Shown here in pieces: positions 39,238 through 54,938 of a stretch of 64,000 nucleotides of DNA. The notes under the pieces were generated by a model. That model had not been told where the DNA came from. It worked only from the letters and a program-made list of their open reading frames with translations, and made no database searches. Numbering within the stretch: position 1 is the stretch's first letter; each line of letters begins with the position of its first letter. The stretch is from Sphingobacterium daejeonense (GTDB taxonomy: Bacteria; Bacteroidota; Bacteroidia; Sphingobacteriales; Sphingobacteriaceae). Location: positions 1,984,001-2,048,000 of the forward strand of contig NZ_LR590470.1 in the NCBI RefSeq assembly GCF_901472535.1. The letters are read 5' to 3'. A program made the translations under genes and the position numbers.

Positions 39238-42200
39238 CTACTCTTGAAGTTTAGTTTTGAGTTGAAAATGATATACAATAATGGAAGGACGAACAATGTT
39301 AAAACAGTAGCTGTTGTTAATCCTCCAATCACTACAGTTGCCAAAGTTTTTGAACCTCCGCACCAGCACTAGTGCTGATTGCCATAGGAAGAAACCCAAT
39401 GAAGCCACTGTAGCAGTCATTAAAACCGGCCGCAACCTAACTTCTGTACCTTCTTTAACTCTTTTAATAATGTCCGTTACTCCTTCTTTTTCCAATTGAT
39501 TGAATTTACCTATCAATACAATTCCATTTAATACCGCTACACCGAATAAGGCGATGAAACCAACTCCTGCACTTATACTGAAAGGCATGTCGCGTATTAA
39601 AAGAGCAAATACACCACCAATGGCACTCATTGGAATTGCCGTAAAAATTAATAATGCCTGTTTGAAGGAATGGAATGTGAAGTATAATAACAAGAATATC
39701 AGGAACAAAGAAATGGGAACTGCTATCATTAACCTTGCACTTGCCATTTGAAGGTTTTCAAATTGTCCTCCATAAGTAAAGTAATACCCTGAAGGAAGTT
39801 TCACCTGTCCATTGAGTTTATTTTGAATCTCTTCCACTACGGACTGTACATCTCGTCCTGAAACATTGAATCCTACAACAATTCTTCTTTTTCCTTCTTC
39901 CCGACTTATCTGTGCTGGCCCAACGCTGAAATCTATCTGTGCCACCTGTGACAGAGGAATCTGTTGATGGTCCCTTGTAGGAATTAATAATTCACTAACA
40001 TCATCAATGTTATTCCTATGCTCATCATGCAACCGTACGACAAGATCGAACCTTCTTTCATTTCATATACCAAACCCGAACTTTTACCAGCAAACGCTGT
40101 ACTGACCATGTCATTTACATCTTGTATGGTAAGGCCATAATTTGCCATCCTGACGCGGTCATATTTTATATTGATTTGCGGAAGTCCAGTTACCTGTTCT
40201 ACTTGTGGTGCGGTGGTACCTTCTACAGACTGGATTACAGAGTTTACTTGATCTGCATAAATCATTAAACTGTCCAGATTTTCACCAAATATTTTGACGG
40301 CAACATCCTGACGTATTCCTGTCATCAATTCATTAAACCTCATTTGAATAGGTTGATTTTTTTCGAAGAATACCCCCGGAATAACTTGAAGTTTGTCCAT
40401 TATTGCATTCCCTAATTCTTCATACGACCTACCCGTTGTCCATTCCTCTTGAGGTTTTAATATTACCATCATGTCAGTAGCTTCAGGGGGCATGGGGGTC
40501 TGTTGGAACTTCAGCAGAGCCTGTTTTTCCAACTACCATTTTTACTTCTTCAAATTGTTTGATAATTCTGGAAGCTTGCATTGAAGTTTCAATACTTTGG
40601 CTCAAAGATGTACCTGGTGGAAGTATACAGTGAAATGCATAATCCCCTTCTTGAAGTTGAGGAATAAATTCTCCGCCCATTCTGCTGAAAATAAAAATGG
40701 TAAATAAGAATATTGCTACAGCAATGGAAACAATAATATATTTAATACGAATGGCCTTGTCCAACAATGGTGAATATATATCATGTAATTTTTCGATGAA
40801 TTTATCACTGAATGTTTTCTTATCATGACCTTCCCTAGGCAAGAAAAGAGCGCACATCATTGGGATATAAGTCAATGAAAGGATAAGTGCTCCAAAGATT
40901 GCAAAACCCACTGTTTTAGCCATAGGAGTAAACATTTTTCCTTCAACACCAACCAGAGTTAAGATGGGGATATATACGATTAGAATGATTATTTCACCGA
41001 AGGCAGCCTGTGTTCTTATTTTTGAAGCCGAATCAAATACTTCTTGATCCATTTCTTTTTGACTCAATTTGTGTGTGGATTTACGAAGTCCAAGGTGATG
41101 TAAGGTCGCTTCCACAACAATTACAGCACCATCTACAATCAATCCAAAATCTATTGCACCCAAACTCATTAGGTTAGCACTCACACCAAATACATTCATC
41201 ATGCCCAGTGCAAACAGCAAGGATAGGGGAATGGCTGATGCAACAATGAGCCCCGCTCTAAGATTTCCTAAGAAAAGAACCAACACAAAAATAACAATTA
41301 AAGCACCTTCAATTAGATTCTTTTCAACAGTACTAATTGCTCTGTCAATAAGGTCTGTCCGATCCAAATAGGGCTCGATGACAACATCTTCAGGCAATGT
41401 TTTTTGAATGGTAGGTAGTTTTTCCTTGATGCGGTTTACAACTTCATTGCTGTTTTCTCCCTTTAACATCATAACAACACCTCCTACAGCATCAACTTCA
41501 CCATTGTATGTCAAAGCGCCATAACGAACAGCACTACCCAACCTGACATCTGCCACGTCTTTGATAAATATTGGAACCAGACCATCGGTTTTAACAGGAA
41601 TATTGCCAACATCTTCTAAGGAACTAACTAAGCCAATTCCCCGAATGAAATATGCATTTGGTTTTTTATCGATATAGGCTCCACCCGTATTTTGGTTGTT
41701 CTTTTCCAGAGCATCGAATATCTCGGGAACACTTACGCCCATTGCTCTTAATTGATCTGGATGAACAGCGACTTCATATTGTTTTAGTTGGCCCCCAAAA
41801 CTATTCACTTCGGCGACACCAGGAGTGCCATAAAGTTGTCTGGCCACAATCCAATCTTGCATCTCCCGCAAATCCATGGAGCTGTATTTCTTCTCACTGC
41901 CTTTTTTTGGATGTATAATATATTGGTATACTTCGCCAAGGCCGGTACTTACTGGCGCCATTTCAGGAGTTCCGATTCCGTTAGGAATGTCCTCGGAAGC
42001 TTCACCTAATTTTTCGTTGATTAATTGACGAGCAAAATATATATCAACATTTTCTTTGAAAACTACGGTAATTACAGAAAGTCCAAATCTAGAAATAGAA
42101 CGGATTTCTTCGATATCAGGTATATTAGCAATACTCTGTTCTATGGGAAAAGTAACCAACCGCTCAACTTCTTGACCCGCTAAAGTTGGTGTACTTGTAA

Positions 42201-42348
42201 AAATCTGCACCTGATTATTGGTAATATCAGGAACGGCATCTATCGGAAGCTTAGTTGCTGACCAAACTCCCCAAATAATTAGTACCAAGGTCATTATGCC
42301 TATAATGATCTTGTTCTTGATACTAAATTTTATAATATTATCTAGCAC
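39238..42348 (-). CDS. CusA/CzcA-type heavy-metal RND efflux pump (frameshifts)
   Basis: Inner membrane proton-driven pump of about 1037 residues. N-terminal TM1 (IIGIMTLVLIIWGVWSA), then LPIDAVPDITNNQVQIFT. The proton-relay motif in TM4 reads LGAIDFGLIVDGAVIVVEA, with the two acidic residues typical of the divalent (Zn/Co/Cd) CzcA type. The periplasmic part has GGAYIDKKPNAYFIRG. The C-terminal half has FIALFGVAVLNGIVLIGKFN and VRLRPVLMTATVASLGFF. Breaks fall near 40500, 40025, 39365 and close to the end near 39255. Metal range is inferred: the motif favours Zn/Co/Cd over Cu/Ag. Confidence 0.92.
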
Positions 42349-44116: not shown

Positions 44117-45620
44117 TTAGTTGTTTAAGGGTAGGCTAATAGTAACGATATTTCCCATATTCTCTTTACGGTATATTTTATAAGAACCGCCGAAGTAATG
44201 AATCTGTTGTTTAGCCATATGTAATTCCATTAGTACGCTATCATCAATTTTTTCACTGTCCTTCAAGATTTGAGAAGCTATTTCAAAACAATGTTGAGAG
44301 TTACAGTTGTTTTCAATTGAGATATAAAATGTCGATTCATTTATCCAACTTTTAATTACAATGTAAATCGGAAAACCATTTTTATAAGTTCCGATAGATT
44401 CGTTGATCAAATATTTGTAAATGCATAAAATATATTCCAATGGAAATGAGATGGTGTTCACTGAAATTTCACTTTGAATTTCCAAAACATTAGTTTCAAT
44501 TTCATTTTTGAAATGTATTTTCAACTTATCTATCAGGACTGATATGAATGAAGTTTCTAAGAGAGACTTGCTAGAATTTTGACCTTCTACAGTTTCGATT
44601 AATTTATCGAATAAGTTCAAGAACTTTTTATTGCTGGTTTTTAAGATGTTTAAAAGTTGTTCTTTTTGACTTGGTTCAGTTTCGATAGACAATTGGTTGA
44701 TTATCATTTCAATATTACTAATCGGCGTTCTAAGGTTATGAGCCAATATTTGATTGAATGCTTCTAATTGATTTACCTTTACCTTGAGCTCATAATTGAT
44801 TTTTTCCAATAACTCGTTTTGCAAGTTGAGTTTATTTTCATTGCTCTTAAAGAGCGAGAGGTCTTGAATTTGACAGATAAAATAAATTACTTTTCCAGAG
44901 GTGTCTCTAACTGAGGATATGTTTATTAAACACCATAAGATCTTATTTTCGTTTGCAATACATTGTGCCTCAATTATTGCATTTTCTCTGATTCCATTTT
45001 TTACATCATCAAACGGCCGCTTGAACATTATCTGAATGACTTTCATGGATGAATTCAGGGACTTTACGCGCTAACATCTCCTCAACATCAGTATAGCCTA
45101 AAATTTTCTGAAGAGCGAGATTATATTCTATTACATTGAGAGATCGATCTAGCAAGAGCATACCAATGGATGAATTTTGGAATGCTCGATTGAATTTTTC
45201 TTCCTTTAACTGAATTTTGGACAATAGCTTCTGCTCCCGAGTAATATTGGTCACTACGGCAGTAAGTTTATCGTCTCTATTTCCGATGATTTTAGTTTGT
45301 AGCCTATATAACTGTTCCGGGTTTTCATAAAATGGAGATTTATATTTTATGACATAGCCTTTTTTCTTTTTGAATGATTTCTCTAAGATATAGCTGAAAG
45401 AAGTTGCTAATTCAGAAGGGAATATTTCATGGATAGTCTTATTTATGAAATGTTCCTTGTCATAAAACAATAGCTTGGGATCAGATGTCCAGCAATTTAA
45501 AATTACTCCATCCCGACTGACCTCAAAAATAATATCATCAATTGATTCTACTAAGGAATCAAAATCCTTGATCTTCTGTTTTAGCTGGATGATTTCATCA
45601 AGCTTCTGGAGCGTTTCCAT
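44117..45620 (-). CDS. Multi-PAS histidine kinase-like protein with degenerate ATPase (one frameshift)
   Basis: About 500 residues with three PAS-type units: EVSRDGVILNCWTSD, FQNSSIGMLLLDRSLNVIEY and a PAS/PAC half with CLINISSVRDTSGKVIYF. A coiled coil follows, then the H box AHNLRTPISNIEMIINQL. The ATP lid region is abnormal: the N box keeps YKYLINESIGTYK, but the G1 DxGxG motif is replaced by ENNCNSQHCF and no GxGLGL is visible. It may therefore not bind ATP normally. An indel near 45020 breaks the second PAS. Soluble, with no membrane segment; partner is the receiver downstream. Confidence 0.82.
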
Positions 45621-46371: not shown

Positions 46372-47178
46372 GTGACTTTAATTTTAAAAAATGGAAGGCC
46401 AACAGTTAGGTTACGAGCATTTAGAGCGATAGATGATCCTGAAACTTGCTTACGATTTATAAAGGGACACGAACATGTTTTGACTTCCATAGGCGTCAAA
46501 AAGGTTACCTCTTCTAAAGACGAATGGATGTTCAATCCAGCGGCTTTTGTGTTAATTGTGGAATCAATGGACGGGTCGCATGTTTATGGCGGTGCCAGAA
46601 TACATGTAGCTGGCGGAACTCAAGCATTGCCCATTGAGGAAGCTACAGGGATGATGGATAGTAAAATATTTGACCTTGTATGGTCTTACGCTCAACAAGG
46701 GACAGGAGAAGGTTGTGGACTTTGGAATTCAAGGGAAATTGCAGGCTATGGAATAGGAAGTATTTTTCTCACTAGAGCAGCAATTGCAATTGCTCCTAGA
46801 ATTGGACTCAAAACATTATTTGCCTTATGCGCTCCATATACTATCAATCTTACTAAGGCCGTTGGTTACAGGCAAGAAACTGGGGTAGGAAACAATGGCA
46901 CTTTTTATTATCCTAAGTTAGATTTACTTGCAACAACCATGATTTTGGATGATGTAGAGAATTTACCAACAGCTTCTGACGAAGATAAAGAAGCTATATT
47001 CTCCCTAAGAAAAATGGCTGAGGGTCCTCGAATTGAGGTGCTTAGGTCTAAAGAAATTGAAATCTTTTATGATTTAACGCTAAATAATCTCAAGGACTTG
47101 GGACTTAAATGCGATCATAAAAATGGCCAGTGGTCCGCGGAAAGTGGATTAATAATACCAATCCAAATGATATCCTAA
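46372..47178 (+). CDS. GNAT/FeeM-LuxI-like N-acyltransferase, predicted
   Basis: 268 residues. I read it as the GNAT branch that includes N-acyl amino acid and LuxI-type synthases: an N-terminal RAFRAIDDPETCLRFIKGHE, the beta-strand YGGARIHV before PIEEA, then the acceptor/CoA side (WNSREIAGYGIGSIFLTRAA) and LFALCAPYTINLTKAVGY. It starts with GTG at 46372, no upstream in-frame ATG being available, and it lies 11 bases before the E1-like gene. Substrate and product are unknown; an acylated small-molecule product is inference from fold and neighbours. Confidence 0.68.
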   Translation: MTLILKNGRPTVRLRAFRAIDDPETCLRFIKGHEHVLTSIGVKKVTSSKDEWMFNPAAFVLIVESMDGSHVYGGARIHVAGGTQALPIEEATGMMDSKIFDLVWSYAQQGTGEGCGLWNSREIAGYGIGSIFLTRAAIAIAPRIGLKTLFALCAPYTINLTKAVGYRQETGVGNNGTFYYPKLDLLATTMILDDVENLPTASDEDKEAIFSLRKMAEGPRIEVLRSKEIEIFYDLTLNNLKDLGLKCDHKNGQWSAESGLIIPIQMIS

Positions 47179-47189
47179 TTATATAAGAC

Positions 47190-48276
47190 ATGGAAGTACA
47201 TAACCAAAATTCAACATATACTTTTAAGCCGATATTTTTTAACAAATCCTATGTCCATGATAAAAATAAAATCCAAATCTTGAAGGATAGTGGAGAAATT
47301 TTATATGAGATTGATGAATATACAAGACAATTAAAAGACTTGTTTGTCAGCAGGTTTCCTAGTTTATCAACAAATGAAGAACAATTTCTAGATTTTTTCT
47401 AGTTTATTAGCTGAAGGCAAATCAATGGAAGAATTAGGGGAGTGGGTCTACTATCCATGGCGCAAAACATTAGTACACATCCTAAGCCGTGAACATTATA
47501 TCGAAGTTCGAACAAATCGGAATAAGCAGAAAATAACTCAACAGGAACAAGAGTTGCTTTCTACTAAAACTATTGGAGTCATTGGGCTTTCAGTTGGGCA
47601 ATCTGTCGCGCTATGTATTGCTATGGAAAGAATATGTGGGAAATTAAAACTCGCGGATTTTGATACAGTAGATTTGAGCAATCTCAACAGACTTCGTGCA
47701 GGTGTCATTGATTTGGGGATGCCAAAGGTAGTTTTAGCCGCTCGAGAAATTGCCGAGATTGATCCTTATATAGATGTAGAAATTTATCCGGAAGGTATAA
47801 AAGCAGAAAATTATAATGATTTCCTTATCGGTTCTGCAAAATTGGATTTGTTGGTTGAGGTTTGTGATAGCTTCGAAGTAAAGGTTGAAAGTAGATTAAA
47901 AGCTAGAGAAAATAGGATTCCGGTGATTATGGAAACAAATGATAGAGGTATGTTGGACGTGGAAAGATTTGATCTAGATTCTTCAATGGACATATTTCAC
48001 GGTTTAGCAGGAGATCTTTCAATGGAAAAGGTTAAAAATTTAGACCCTGTTTCAAAGATGGGAATGTTAATGAAAATTGTTAATGCAGATCATTTATCTG
48101 ATCGGATGAAATCTTCTTTGCCCGAAATTGGTAAAACATTAAAATCATGGCCTCAATTAGCGTCTGAAGTTGTTTTGGGAGGAGCAGTTGTGGCTTGGGC
48201 CTCTAGGAAATTATTGCTCAATAAGGAAATTCCATCCGGTCGGTATTACATTGACCTGGAAAAAATTATTAGTTAA
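47190..48276 (+). CDS. ThiF/E1-like adenylyltransferase (one frameshift)
   Basis: About 361 residues. The N-terminal 95 residues are unassigned. The E1 Rossmann part has TIGVIGLSVGQSVAL in place of GxGGxGS, then LADFDTVDLSNLNRLRAG, the standard D-x-D-x-V-x-x-S-N-L-N-R element that binds ATP and the substrate C-terminus. DLLVEVCDSFEVKVESR matches the segment after it. No zinc Cys pairs are seen, unlike MoeB/ThiF. An indel near 47397 breaks the frame. Related proteins often have a C-terminal nitroreductase domain, absent here. Probably activates a carboxylate as an adenylate for the preceding acyltransferase's product (inference). Confidence 0.8.
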
Positions 48277-48296
48277 CTCATTGACGGTGAATTCAA

Positions 48297-50468
48297 ATGT
48301 TTAGATATATACTTTTTCTATTAATTCTATTCCAATGCCTATTCACGAATAGTGGACTCGCATCAGTAGATAGTGTTATTTATTTTAAAGGAAAAGATCT
48401 TCAAAATATTGGTAGACATTTGTTTATCCTAAAAGATGGCGCTGTCATAAAAAAATTCCAAGATGTTCAGCAACATCCAGAATGGTTTGTACCTAGTAAA
48501 TCTGAAGTTCCCAATTTGGGGAGTGTGCGATCGCCACAATGGATAAAATTTATCGTGGTCAATGATTCAGATGAGGATAAGGTAATAGTTAATTTGTCAC
48601 ATCCAAATCTGGATATAGTGAAATTTTATTCTGTTGTAAATTCTGAGATAGACAGTGTAAAGTATGCAGTTGGATCATCTTATGTAGATCGGGAATATAA
48701 TCATCAGTTTTATTTGTTTGATTTGAACCTTAAGAAAGGTGAGCGGGCGGAATGTTACCTACAGATAAAAAATGAAACCCAAGTTATAGTCCCAATTTCA
48801 TTACATTCTCAAAAAGGATTATTTAAAACCTTACAGCAAGAGGATATTTTATCGGCTATTTATATTGGCCTAATGCTATCTATGCTGCTGTACAATGCCT
48901 TTTTATATTTTTCAACCAAAGAGAAACATTATTTAACCTATGTAAATTATATTTTTTGGGTTTTTGTTGCCCAAATGGCGGTCTTAGGATTATTTGAACG
49001 TGTTTTTCATATTAGAAGTGAATGGTTATCAAGTCGAATATTAACATTTTCAGGGGCAATGTCAGGGATTACAGCCATATTATTTGTAAAATCATTTCTG
49101 CATACCGCTGTAGATGCTAAAAACTTCAATAGATTGTTGAATGTCTTTTTGTTTTTTTATTTGATTGCTATCATTCTCTTAATCATTGGATATATTCTTC
49201 CTGCGTATCGTATAGTCAATTTAGTAGCAGGTGGAGGCGCAGCTATTGTATTGCTTTTGGCATTTGAGCTCTCAAGAAAAAAATATAGTCAGACCAAATT
49301 TTTCTTGTTTGCGTGGTGTGTTTTTCTTATCAGTGTCTTGGTTTTTGTGTTGAAAGATTACGGTGTGCTGCCTACAAACGTTTTCACTACACGTTCTGTC
49401 CAAATAGGCTCTGTTATTGAAGCATTACTGCTATCTTTTGCTTTAGCTGACAAAATAAATACTTATCGAAAAGAAATGTTAGATCTTCAGGTCAGAGAGC
49501 TCGCAATTTCTCAAGAAAACGAAAAATTGATCCGAGAACAGAATGTTGTATTGGAACAAAAAGTAAAGGAAAGAACCGAGGAACTTCAAGAATCTAATAA
49601 ATCTTTAAGCTTAACTCTTGAGAATTTAAAAGACGCGCAAGCGCAGTTAGTGGAGTCTGAAAAAATGGCTTCCTTAGGACAACTGACTGCAGGTGTCGCT
49701 CATGAGATAAATAACCCGATAAATTTCGTTACCTCGAATGTTTCTCCTTTGCGAAGAGACGTGGGTATTCTATGGAATATTATAGATGAAATGGAAGCCA
49801 TCGCTTTAAATCCAGATATAGATCTTTCTGAAAAAGAACAAAGAATTCTTGCTCTTAAAAAACAACATGACGTAGGATACTTGAATTCAGAAATCAACTT
49901 TCTGCTAAAGGGTATTCAAGAAGGAGCGGAGCGTACTGCAGAAATTGTCAAAAGCTTACGAATTTTCTCGAGGATTGATGAAGATATTTTGAAAGAAGCA
50001 GACCTAAATGAAGGTTTAGATTCTACACTTGTTATTTTGAACAGCATGACGAAGGAAAGAATTGAAGTTGTGAAAAGGTATGAGGACATTCCTTTAGTAG
50101 AGAGTTATGCCGGTAAGGTGAATCAGGTATTTATGAATGTGCTTTCAAATGCAATCTATGCAGTAGAGAAAAAATTTAACGGAAATCCAGGGGGTGAATT
50201 GGTGATTGAAACTAAACTGAATGAAGATAAGTCTAAAGTTAAAATTATTATAAATGATAATGGGGTGGGTATACCTGAGGAAATTAAAAATCGTATATTC
50301 GAACCTTTTTTTACTACCAAAGAAGTCGGAGAAGGCACTGGTCTAGGGATGTCAATCGCATACAAAACTATTGATAAGCATAATGGTAAGATTTTAGTCG
50401 AATCTGAAGTGGGAATAGGGACATCCTTCACCATTATTTTGCCAATCCGACAACACGTTAAAAACTAA
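48297..50468 (+). CDS. 7TMR-DISM sensor histidine kinase
   Basis: 723 residues. A signal peptide is followed by a periplasmic DISMED2 carbohydrate-binding-like domain (about 25-170: SPQWIKFIVVNDSDEDKVIV, YLFDLNLKKGERAECYLQI). Seven transmembrane helices at about 180-385 (the DISM 7TM module) lead into a coiled coil and the kinase: H box SLGQLTAGVAHEINNPINFV, N box NQVFMNVLSNAIYAV, NDNGVGIPEEI, FFTTKEVGEGTGLGMSIAYK. It starts 20 bases after the E1-like gene. It should sense an external or membrane-borne ligand; the obvious candidate is the product of the two upstream enzymes. Confidence 0.92.
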   Translation: MFRYILFLLILFQCLFTNSGLASVDSVIYFKGKDLQNIGRHLFILKDGAVIKKFQDVQQHPEWFVPSKSEVPNLGSVRSPQWIKFIVVNDSDEDKVIVNLSHPNLDIVKFYSVVNSEIDSVKYAVGSSYVDREYNHQFYLFDLNLKKGERAECYLQIKNETQVIVPISLHSQKGLFKTLQQEDILSAIYIGLMLSMLLYNAFLYFSTKEKHYLTYVNYIFWVFVAQMAVLGLFERVFHIRSEWLSSRILTFSGAMSGITAILFVKSFLHTAVDAKNFNRLLNVFLFFYLIAIILLIIGYILPAYRIVNLVAGGGAAIVLLLAFELSRKKYSQTKFFLFAWCVFLISVLVFVLKDYGVLPTNVFTTRSVQIGSVIEALLLSFALADKINTYRKEMLDLQVRELAISQENEKLIREQNVVLEQKVKERTEELQESNKSLSLTLENLKDAQAQLVESEKMASLGQLTAGVAHEINNPINFVTSNVSPLRRDVGILWNIIDEMEAIALNPDIDLSEKEQRILALKKQHDVGYLNSEINFLLKGIQEGAERTAEIVKSLRIFSRIDEDILKEADLNEGLDSTLVILNSMTKERIEVVKRYEDIPLVESYAGKVNQVFMNVLSNAIYAVEKKFNGNPGGELVIETKLNEDKSKVKIIINDNGVGIPEEIKNRIFEPFFTTKEVGEGTGLGMSIAYKTIDKHNGKILVESEVGIGTSFTIILPIRQHVKN

Positions 50469-50529
50469 GGGATAAGTTTTTAATACACACTAATGAAACT
50501 TGGTTCACACTAACTAATAAGGTAATAGT

Positions 50530-51615
50530 ATGGATAATAATATTGAGATTTTATACATCGATGATGAATACAACAATTTAGTTGGTTTTAAAGCTGCTCT
50601 TAGGATGCAGTATAATATTCATATTGCTAGCAATACAACAGATGCTGAGAATATATTGATGACAAATCCGAACATCCGGATAATATTTTGTGATCAAAAA
50701 ATGCCAGGTGAAAATGGGATAGATTTCTTCAGTAGGATAAAGAAAGAGTATCCAAGACCAATAAGAATTCTGATTACTGCTTATGCTGATATGGATACTG
50801 TTATTGATTCAATCAATAGAGGACATATATTTAGGTTTATCAGAAAACCATGGGAAGAGGCAGAAGTTATTTCATGTATTGAGGAAGCCAATAAGTTTTT
50901 TGTAACCAATTCTCTTCTTGAAACCCGGAATATGGAACTTCAAAAAGCTTACGAAGAATTGGATAAGTTTGCCTATAGTGTAAGCCATGATTTAAGAGAC
51001 CCATTGTCTGGAGTATTAGGAGCTATTCGAATCGCACTCGACTTTAAAAGTGTTGAACAGGTTCACGAAATCTTATTTTTAATGAAAGCTTCCATTGTTA
51101 AATTGGAAGATTATATCAATAGCTTAAGAGATTATTATTTATTAAGAAGAGGAGAGCTGAACTTGTCAAAAATAGATTTCAATCTATTATTTGAGGACAT
51201 TCTCGATTTTTATAAAGTTTATACTCAAAATAGTGGAATTGACTTCAATATTAAGGTAGATCAAAGCAAAACTTTTATAAATGATAAATCAATCTTAGAA
51301 TTGATCCTTCACAATTTGGTGTCAAATGCCATAAAGTATCAGAAAATAGATTCTAGCGACAAGAGAATAAACCTGTCTGTAGAAACTCACAATGGAGATG
51401 TTAGAATATTAGTTTCTGATAATGGAATTGGTATTCCAAAAGAAGCAATCCAAGATATTTTCAGACTATTTTTCAGGGCTAGTGACCAAGCTGAGGGTAT
51501 GGGGTTTGGACTTTATAATGTAAAAACCGCGATCCAAAAGTTGAAAGGGAAAATTGAAGTAGAATCAGAAATAGATAATGGTTCAACATTTATAGTCACC
51601 ATACCATCGAAATAA
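50530..51615 (+). CDS. Receiver-histidine kinase hybrid (REC-HisKA-HATPase)
   Basis: 361 residues. The N-terminal receiver has ILYIDDEYNNLVGFKAALRM, IIFCDQKMPGENGIDFF with the phosphorylated Asp, and FRFIRKPWEEAEV. A coiled coil leads into the kinase: AYSVSHDLRDPLSGVLGAIR (H box), ILHNLVSNAIKYQ (N box), VSDNGIGIPKEAI, and a GxGFGL element in EGMGFGLYNVKTA. No transmembrane segment. Reversed order (receiver first) suggests it is a relay: phosphorylated by the upstream 7TM kinase, it then passes the signal on. Its receiver is close in sequence to the lone receiver at 51632-52099. Confidence 0.9.
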   Translation: MDNNIEILYIDDEYNNLVGFKAALRMQYNIHIASNTTDAENILMTNPNIRIIFCDQKMPGENGIDFFSRIKKEYPRPIRILITAYADMDTVIDSINRGHIFRFIRKPWEEAEVISCIEEANKFFVTNSLLETRNMELQKAYEELDKFAYSVSHDLRDPLSGVLGAIRIALDFKSVEQVHEILFLMKASIVKLEDYINSLRDYYLLRRGELNLSKIDFNLLFEDILDFYKVYTQNSGIDFNIKVDQSKTFINDKSILELILHNLVSNAIKYQKIDSSDKRINLSVETHNGDVRILVSDNGIGIPKEAIQDIFRLFFRASDQAEGMGFGLYNVKTAIQKLKGKIEVESEIDNGSTFIVTIPSK

Positions 51616-53434: not shown

Positions 53435-54938
53435 ATGAACGGAGTAGTAGAAAAATTAGATTTTGAAACCTATATCTCATCTTTCAGAAAACATTTATTT
53501 CATTTGTTCAGAGAGGAATTTGATTATGGAGCAATCAGCTTGAAGCGTGATTTCCCTGCGGAATTTTTGTCTGAGATCATGAAGAAAAAGCCTTTGGCAG
53601 TAGCTATCCCAGAATTGCATGGTGGTAGAGGAGTTTCTGTAAAAGAATGTTTAGGTGTTCTTTCTGCAGCATCCTATGAATCATTGGCTTTATCCTTAAT
53701 GTTTGGGATAAATATTGCTTTGTTTTTGGAGCCATTAGCGAAATACGGCAATTTCTCAGTACAGGAAAGGGTTTTTAAAGAGTTCATGGAAAACAATGCC
53801 ATGGGTGGTTTGATGATTACGGAGAAAGCGTATGGAAGTGATGCCCTAAATATGAAGACAGGCTATGAGCAGATTGGAGATAGTTATAAAATAAAGGGAG
53901 AAAAACACTGGCAGGGACTTAGTGGAGCAGCCGATTTTTGGCTTGTAACCGCGAGAAAATATACACCGACAGGTGAACTGACCAGAGATATAGATTTCTT
54001 TGTAACAGAAAACAAAAAATCTGAACAGCATATCCCTATGGTGGAACGCTATAACAACTTAGGATTGTATGCCATTCCATATGGTATCAATCCAATAGAT
54101 GTTGTCGTTCCGGGTGATCAAAAATTAAATCCTGAAAGTACCGGGATAAAACTGATGTTGGACATGCTTCACAGAAGTAGGCTACAATTTCCAGGTATGG
54201 GTCTAGGTTTTATTAAAAGACTAATGGATGAATCATTGGAACATTGTCAAACCAGAATAGTAGGGGGGTAATCCATTAATCAACATTGATTCTGTAAAAT
54301 ACCAATTAGCAAGAATTCAAGCGGCATTCACCATTTGTTCAGGAATGTGTGCGTACAGTGTTGAAGCAAGTGGTATTGAGCATGATGTTTCTGGATTAAG
54401 CATTGAAGCAAATACCCTTAAAGCATTGGTGACGGATTTAATGCAAGAATCTGCACAAATTAGTCTTCAACTTGCTGGAGCAAACGGCTATAGATTAGAT
54501 CATATCGCCGGAAGATCTGTGGTAGATAGTAGGCCATTCCAAATTTTTGAAGGCTCAAATGAAATGCTTTATTCTCAGATTGCTGAAGGGGTATTAAAGT
54601 TAATGCGAAAAGCAAAAGAAACAAATTTATATGAATTCTTAAAAGGCTACAGCAATGCTAATTTAAGTGCTCCATATTTCCAAAATCAATTGAATTTTAG
54701 TTTAGAAACTGGACTAAACCAAAGAGATATGGTTACTTTGGGAAGAATGATCGCTCGTGTTATCAGCTTCCAGTTTGTTCTGCAAATTAATGGATTTAAC
54801 TCAGAGCTAGTGGAAATTACACGTCAACATATTTTAATGGACCTAACGATGTTCCAAGGTCAGTTTGCAAGCCGAAACATTGCGAACCCACTTGTAGAAT
54901 ATAATGACAATTCAGATTGGATGAGTTTCCTATCTTAA
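53435..54938 (+). CDS. Acyl-CoA dehydrogenase family protein (one frameshift)
   Basis: About 501 residues, FAD-dependent. The N-terminal helical domain contains VAIPELHGGRGVSVKECLGV; the middle beta domain has MITEKAYGSDALNMKTGYEQ and IKGEKHWQGLSGAADFWLVT, FAD-contacting elements. The frame breaks in a six-G run near 54265. The C-terminal half has SVKYQLARIQAAFTICSGMC, LAGANGYR and FQIFEGSNEMLYSQIAEGVL, the usual cofactor-binding end of the family. No electron-transfer flavoprotein or thiolase genes are nearby, so its pathway is unclear. Confidence 0.88.

Follow-up and report, generated by a model that had tools for sequence, protein, structure and literature searches.

What joins an acyltransferase, an E1-like enzyme, a membrane-bound sensor kinase and a receiver-kinase in a single run of genes of Sphingobacterium daejeonense? 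The genes lie in a window of 64,000 nucleotides (G000:C1:1984001-2048000; the whole stretch of DNA that was analyzed, to which the positions given below refer) of a 4.73 Mb genome available as a single contig. They were originally predicted to form an operon that makes and senses a signal.

The locus and its reading frames

The features of the locus are as follows:

46372-47178, plus strand: AT1 (gene 1), a GNAT-fold N-acyltransferase with a predicted FeeM/AHL-synthase-like fold and a GTG start
47190-48276, plus strand: E1 (gene 2), a predicted stand-alone ThiF-type adenylating cyclase matching NF005901, with a broken frame
48297-50468, plus strand: 7TMR-DISM sensor histidine kinase (gene 3), with PF07696, PF07695 (3.6e-41), PF00512 and PF02518
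48297-49454, plus strand: the exchangeable sensor half of that kinase (extracellular DISMED2 and 7TM), delimited by 7TM identities, trees and exchange breakpoints
50530-51615, plus strand: RRHK (gene 4), receiver and histidine kinase, with PF00072, PF00512 and PF02518
51632-52099, minus strand: RR5, a lone receiver (PF00072, 1.3e-18), convergent with genes 1-4

The four genes on one strand, separated by gaps of 11, 20 and 61 bases, were re-found in the window together with the motifs attributed to them (YGGARIHV, LCAPYTINLTKAVGY and DFDTVDLSNLNR), and domain searches agree with the ThiF (PF00899, 4e-18), 7TMR-DISM kinase and receiver-kinase assignments. The operon thus stands in its genes, order and gaps but not in the continuity of gene 2, which is not one open frame; likewise, the four genes proposed as a cassette are present but the conserved unit has a fifth, RR5, lying beyond them. 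Chance adjacency is of no concern, because the only 7TMR-DISM gene of the genome is located here and about 150 genomes share the arrangement.

From its start at 47190, gene 2 stays in frame only as far as a run of six T (47393-47398), which is why the ORF caller begins it only at 47425; its relatives are unbroken and 355-375 aa long. The final ~20 residues of AT1 also appear shifted with respect to its relatives, probably by an indel. Two further genes within 10 kb, neither of them a member of the module, are broken likewise when compared to their relatives: a PAS kinase (44117-45620, minus strand) and an acyl-CoA dehydrogenase (53435-54938, plus strand), each in two pieces. Since these nearby genes share the defect, we favor indel errors of the assembly over gene decay as the cause. 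A CusA-like efflux pump (39238-42348, minus strand) is split into three pieces, and the broken pump, PAS kinase and dehydrogenase along with genes 1 and 2 point to many small indels in the assembly. A programmed frameshift in gene 2 was rejected as the default explanation, given the unbroken relatives and the breakage of the two neighboring non-module genes. Our functional statements on genes 1 and 2 rest on their intact relatives as well.

AT1, an acyltransferase of predicted FeeM-like fold

The first gene product had been read as close to the FeeM/LuxI-type N-acyltransferases. The best match of its AF2 model (pLDDT 83.5, pTM 0.83) in a Foldseek search of the PDB is FeeM (2g0b; E 2.1e-8, TMt 0.75), an N-acyl amino acid synthase, and the next are BjaI, RpaI and MesI. 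VIA-align returns Z-scores of 16.6 to FeeM and 15.4 to RpaI, with the AHL synthases RpaI, BjaI and LasI coming after FeeM at Z of ~14-15, among general GNATs. Judged by this model, AT1 has the FeeM/AHL-synthase fold, so that the reading holds for fold by both structural searches but not for sequence profiles. Profile searches placed AT1 in no Pfam or NCBIfam family, and no family was found for it among PDB sequences. When 17 AT1 members were compared against Pfam at E 0.1, none matched apart from one spurious match, in a test where the acyltransferase of the Moorena locus L011, used as positive control, matches PF21926 at 8.8e-17.

Searches for AT1 on plasmids and, with the AT1 profile, among the genes beside the ThiF-oxidase genes of Moorena, Actinomycetota and Polyangium matched nothing. 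The Moorena ThiF-oxidase gene is adjoined by a FeeM-family enzyme instead of AT1: at L011 5582-8859 the PF21926 acyltransferase directly precedes the ThiF-oxidase fusion gene, and a DISM kinase is absent in the sequence stretch examined. This pair is likely a cyanobacterial oxazolone cluster. A further architectural variant is seen in L184, which has two AT1 genes in tandem alongside one ThiF-oxidase and one DISM kinase.

The tailoring enzyme and its replacements

E1 matches NF005901, the Rv1355c family, at 1.8e-128 (429.8 bits) across model positions 61-339 of 722, and misses the whole-family cut-off of 476 due to the absence of the oxidase half. On sequence grounds, it is predicted to correspond to the cyclase half of the Rv1355c/TrzS oxazolone synthase as a stand-alone protein, lacking the fused nitroreductase/oxidase. 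The ThiF ATP-site residues G129, D156, D158, N166, R167, K179 and D226 are kept in at least 97% of 119 relatives, and D226, from its position in the ThiF domain, appears to be the counterpart of D217 of TrzS, the Asp whose change abolishes the TrzS cyclase. Neither a flavin-dependent oxidase partner in the operon nor a second NF005901 half in the genome was found, and the only two nitroreductase-family genes of the genome are ordinary ones, far from the locus.

Rv1355c, i.e. TrzS, cyclizes N-acyl tryptophan with ATP and then desaturates the product, while a related pathway has TyzB as its stand-alone cyclase; TyzB and TrzS both cyclize N-acyl amino acids (PMC12856293, PMC10404671). Disabling the oxidase of TrzS leads to the saturated oxazolone (PMC10404671, PMC12856293), and expression of TyzA and TyzB without TyzC left the cyclized product undetected (PMC12856293). 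By analogy, a saturated oxazolone is proposed, with uncertainty, as the product of E1 in S. daejeonense; the stand-alone ThiF may make something else, because it has no oxidase partner here and TyzA with TyzB gave no detected cyclized product in the absence of TyzC.

The slot held by gene 2 is variable. Across 158 Bacteroidota loci, taken one per genome for all our neighborhood counts, it is occupied by a stand-alone ThiF cyclase in 54, a ThiF protein of ~770 aa with a fused oxidase-like half in 62, a class I SAM methyltransferase in 37 and a membrane methyltransferase of the ICMT family (the carboxyl methyltransferase family PF04140) in 2. A recognized tailoring enzyme is thereby present in 155 of the 158, and two of the remaining three loci are at contig ends. 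The E1-like gene of the original prediction is therefore only one of three alternative capping enzymes. The enzyme types that alternate in the slot are unrelated, and each plausibly acts on a carboxylate: adenylation of carboxylates is the reaction of ThiF enzymes, and methylation of a carboxylate that of ICMT. Hence the simplest common denominator is an AT1 product with a free carboxylate to be capped; the parallel with ThiF and ICMT suggests a carboxylate as the substrate of the soluble methyltransferase too. In L181 (3187-8154), AT1, the DISM kinase and the receivers are present with no recognizable tailoring enzyme, and this module may use an uncapped product or an enzyme encoded elsewhere.

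The kinases and receivers

The DISM kinase comprises a sensor half (residues 1-386) and a kinase half (residues 387-723), with the DISM extracellular domain (7TMR-DISMED2), 7TMR-DISM_7TM, HisKA and HATPase all present, and is the sole product of a PF07695 gene in the genome. Its phospho-acceptor H469 is found in 150 of 150 relatives. In RRHK, the receiver D55 is kept in 139/139 relatives and H153 in 138/139. Neither RRHK nor RR5 has a DNA-binding domain. On plasmids, the search with RRHK recovered only generic hybrid kinases of 26-30% identity. Many loci encode an extra small receiver of ~130 aa after the receiver-kinase (e.g. L156 12226-12636, L193, L194), which is a candidate for a further output element.

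Distribution and co-occurrence

AT1 is found in 66 of the 94 genomes with the genus code of Sphingobacterium. The corresponding counts are 125 of 251 genomes for the family, 76 of 395 for the class and 13 of 395 in a sample of the phylum. Co-occurrence of the enzymes with the kinases across genomes, a test put forward with the proposed cassette, was strongly positive: a DISM kinase adjoins AT1 in 151 of the 158 loci, contig ends account for four of the seven exceptions, and just three loci (L215, L216, L261) have AT1 without the kinase away from such ends. A receiver-kinase is near AT1 in 140 and a lone receiver in 138 of these loci. Within the genus, AT1 and RRHK occur in the identical 66 of 94 genomes. 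In L106 (genome G021) the receiver-kinase has moved 37 kb away, yet is retained. As for other components, we found no transporter, DNA-binding output regulator, exporter or immunity gene as part of the module, and no other biosynthetic gene recurring with it among the 158 loci.

The sensor half co-varies with the tailoring enzyme

When loci are classed by their tailoring enzyme, the 7TM regions within the genus show at least 42% identity inside a class and at most 39% between classes. The kinase halves in the genus reach 95-98% identity between classes, and the kinase halves, AT1, RRHK and the receiver as a set up to 95-100%. On trees of 150 loci from related genomes, with three tailoring classes, the sensor half requires 2 class changes, which is the minimum, as against 18 for the kinase half, 18 for AT1 and 19 for RRHK; if only changes enforced by well-supported branches are counted, there are at least 4 within the genus and, with all loci taken together, 13-14 for the methyltransferase class. 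When 63 loci were re-analyzed under a mixture model, the sensor half again required 2 changes, against 13, and the methyltransferase-class sensors came together in one group (97% SH-aLRT). Placing all methyltransferase loci in a single clade is rejected both for the kinase half (p-AU 5.9e-6) and for AT1 (9.7e-44). The nearest neighbor belongs to the same class for 149 of 150 7TM regions and 125 of 150 kinase halves, and none of the 150 loci combines an E1-class sensor with a methyltransferase or the reverse. Unsupervised clustering by 7TM identity yields a few groups that do not correspond one-to-one with the three classes, which are recovered by trees and nearest neighbors only; at eight clusters, 10 ThiF-oxidase sensors fall into the methyltransferase group.

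The exchange can be traced at the DNA level. Between L114 (E1) and L125 (methyltransferase), which come from sister genomes, sequences of 93-99% identity flank a non-matching block that opens 12 bases after AT1 ends and closes near residue 346 of the kinase, and the comparisons of L142 with L141 and of L110 with L141 display the same pattern. Enzyme and sensor half are adjacent within Sphingobacterium, so that some of their linkage in the genus could be mechanical. Adjacency does not fully account for their match, however, because loci of the order E1-AT1-kinase and those of the order AT1-E1-kinase both carry E1-class sensors.

The co-variation of a sensor half with an enzyme is the genetic mark of a sender matched to a receiver. 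What is expected of a pherotype locus is what we observe here: the putative signal-making gene and the sensor half vary together, and the kinase core and the flanks are conserved. Together with the co-occurrence, this tracking of the tailoring enzyme by the sensor half lends support to the prediction that the enzymes make a signal which the kinase reads, the signal itself being what we infer.

A proposed mechanism and its alternatives

We consider it quite probable that the locus is a sender-receiver module, i.e. a pherotype-like small-molecule signaling locus in which an acylated amino acid is capped and read by a matched sensor. AT1 would link an amino acid to an acyl group supplied by acyl-CoA or acyl-ACP, and E1 would adenylate the carboxylate of the product and close the ring to give a (saturated) oxazolone. 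In other genomes, the methyltransferase would produce a methyl ester in its place and the fused oxidase would additionally desaturate the oxazolone. The neutral capped product, a small lipid-like molecule, is predicted to exit the cell or to remain in the membrane, and to bind the sensor half (DISMED2 and 7TM) of the DISM kinase, which would then phosphorylate the receiver of RRHK and/or RR5; these may relay the signal onward by means other than a DNA-binding domain of their own. Under this proposal, the enzyme and the sensor half are exchanged together while AT1 and the kinase core stay, because the tailoring enzyme sets the ligand.

Several alternatives also account for some of these observations. 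An unlikely one, though the most serious, is a lipid or secondary-metabolite operon with product feedback, in which the kinase monitors an acyl amino acid lipid or antimicrobial for homeostasis or self-protection with no intercellular message. Both N-acyl amino acids and oxazolones have been described as lipids and antimicrobials (PMC12479983, PMC12856293), a membrane lipid would fit the absence of an exporter or immunity gene, and co-variation of enzyme and sensor would be expected there too. Nevertheless, the module has no further biosynthetic genes as recurrent companions, it devotes two kinases and a lone receiver to just one or two small enzymes in nearly every genome, and swapping the chemistry while keeping the rest would be unusual for a structural lipid. 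Alternatively, the strictness of the match could reflect a sensor half that touches the tailoring enzyme through a protein-protein contact and senses the state of the enzyme rather than its product. This we deem highly improbable, as the enzymes belong to three unrelated types that are not found in the same place (ThiF and one methyltransferase are soluble, ICMT is in the membrane), and the region in which the kinases diverge takes in the extracellular DISMED2, which is out of reach of a cytosolic enzyme.

Equally slight are the chances that adjacent genes merely hitch-hike in homologous recombination between conserved flanks, the enzymes and kinases being functionally unrelated. The exchange of enzyme and sensor half as one contiguous block in loci of the AT1-enzyme-kinase order is what such a process would generate; however, the module is kept together across the phylum despite different gene orders, the sensors are of the E1 class even where AT1 separates E1 from the kinase, and RRHK both persists when displaced by 37 kb and has a presence profile identical to that of AT1.

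Returning to the sender-receiver module, its extension to the phylum also seems reasonably likely: a quorum-sensing-like system of Bacteroidota with one acyltransferase and interchangeable cappings (oxazolone with or without desaturation, and soluble or membrane methylation), each with its own sensor half, wherein oxazolones would be signals and related species would belong to different communication groups.

Significance and comparison with known systems

The enzyme families, the sensor family and the idea of a matched sender and receiver are each already known. In the open-access literature we found neither the module nor exchangeable capping chemistries described before, and no account of oxazolone-type enzymes paired with a receptor of their own. 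The physiological role of oxazolones is regarded as a major unresolved question by the authors who studied them, who merely suggested signaling (PMC12856293). The location of an oxazolone enzyme family beside a dedicated receptor, whose ligand-binding half changes with the enzyme, makes that role directly testable in culturable soil bacteria. If our proposal is true, the 7TMR-DISM sensor family gains a ligand class and many Bacteroidota gain a native small-molecule signaling system.

The FeeM/LuxI-type synthases are like AT1 in fold, but share only 10-15% identity with it, and their Pfam families (FeeM and autoinducer synthase) do not match it. A close enzymatic parallel is with the oxazolone loci, namely TyzACB/TrzAS of Mycobacterium tuberculosis and OxzAB of Pseudoalteromonas rubra, where an N-acyltransferase likewise lies beside a Rv1355c-family ThiF cyclase. 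In 62 of the relatives the fused oxidase-like half is shared as well, whereas E1 of the present locus lacks it and has no counterpart for it in the genome. AT1 is, moreover, not a recognizable sequence relative of the FeeM-type enzymes, the cyclase is replaced by methyltransferases in sister genomes, and the module has dedicated sensor kinases, with which the known oxazolone loci have not been reported.

The likenesses to two further systems are best taken as comparisons of design rather than as indications of membership. The PhcBSRQ locus of Ralstonia, whose signal is a methyl 3-hydroxy fatty acid, resembles the module in layout by combining a methyltransferase, a sensor kinase, a receiver-kinase without a DNA-binding domain and a lone receiver, and the type of signal is said to accompany the PhcB and PhcS sequence (PMC8578825). 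The module differs in having an acyltransferase ahead of the capping enzyme, a 7TMR-DISM protein as its sensor, a capping enzyme that can be swapped for a cyclase, and no phcA-like target. The ComQXPA locus of Bacillus subtilis similarly combines polymorphic genes for making the signal with a sensor that matches them (PMC4408185). Its signal, however, is a peptide pheromone rather than the acyl-amino-acid derivative predicted here, and the module, in contrast, swaps unrelated enzymes and does so across a phylum.
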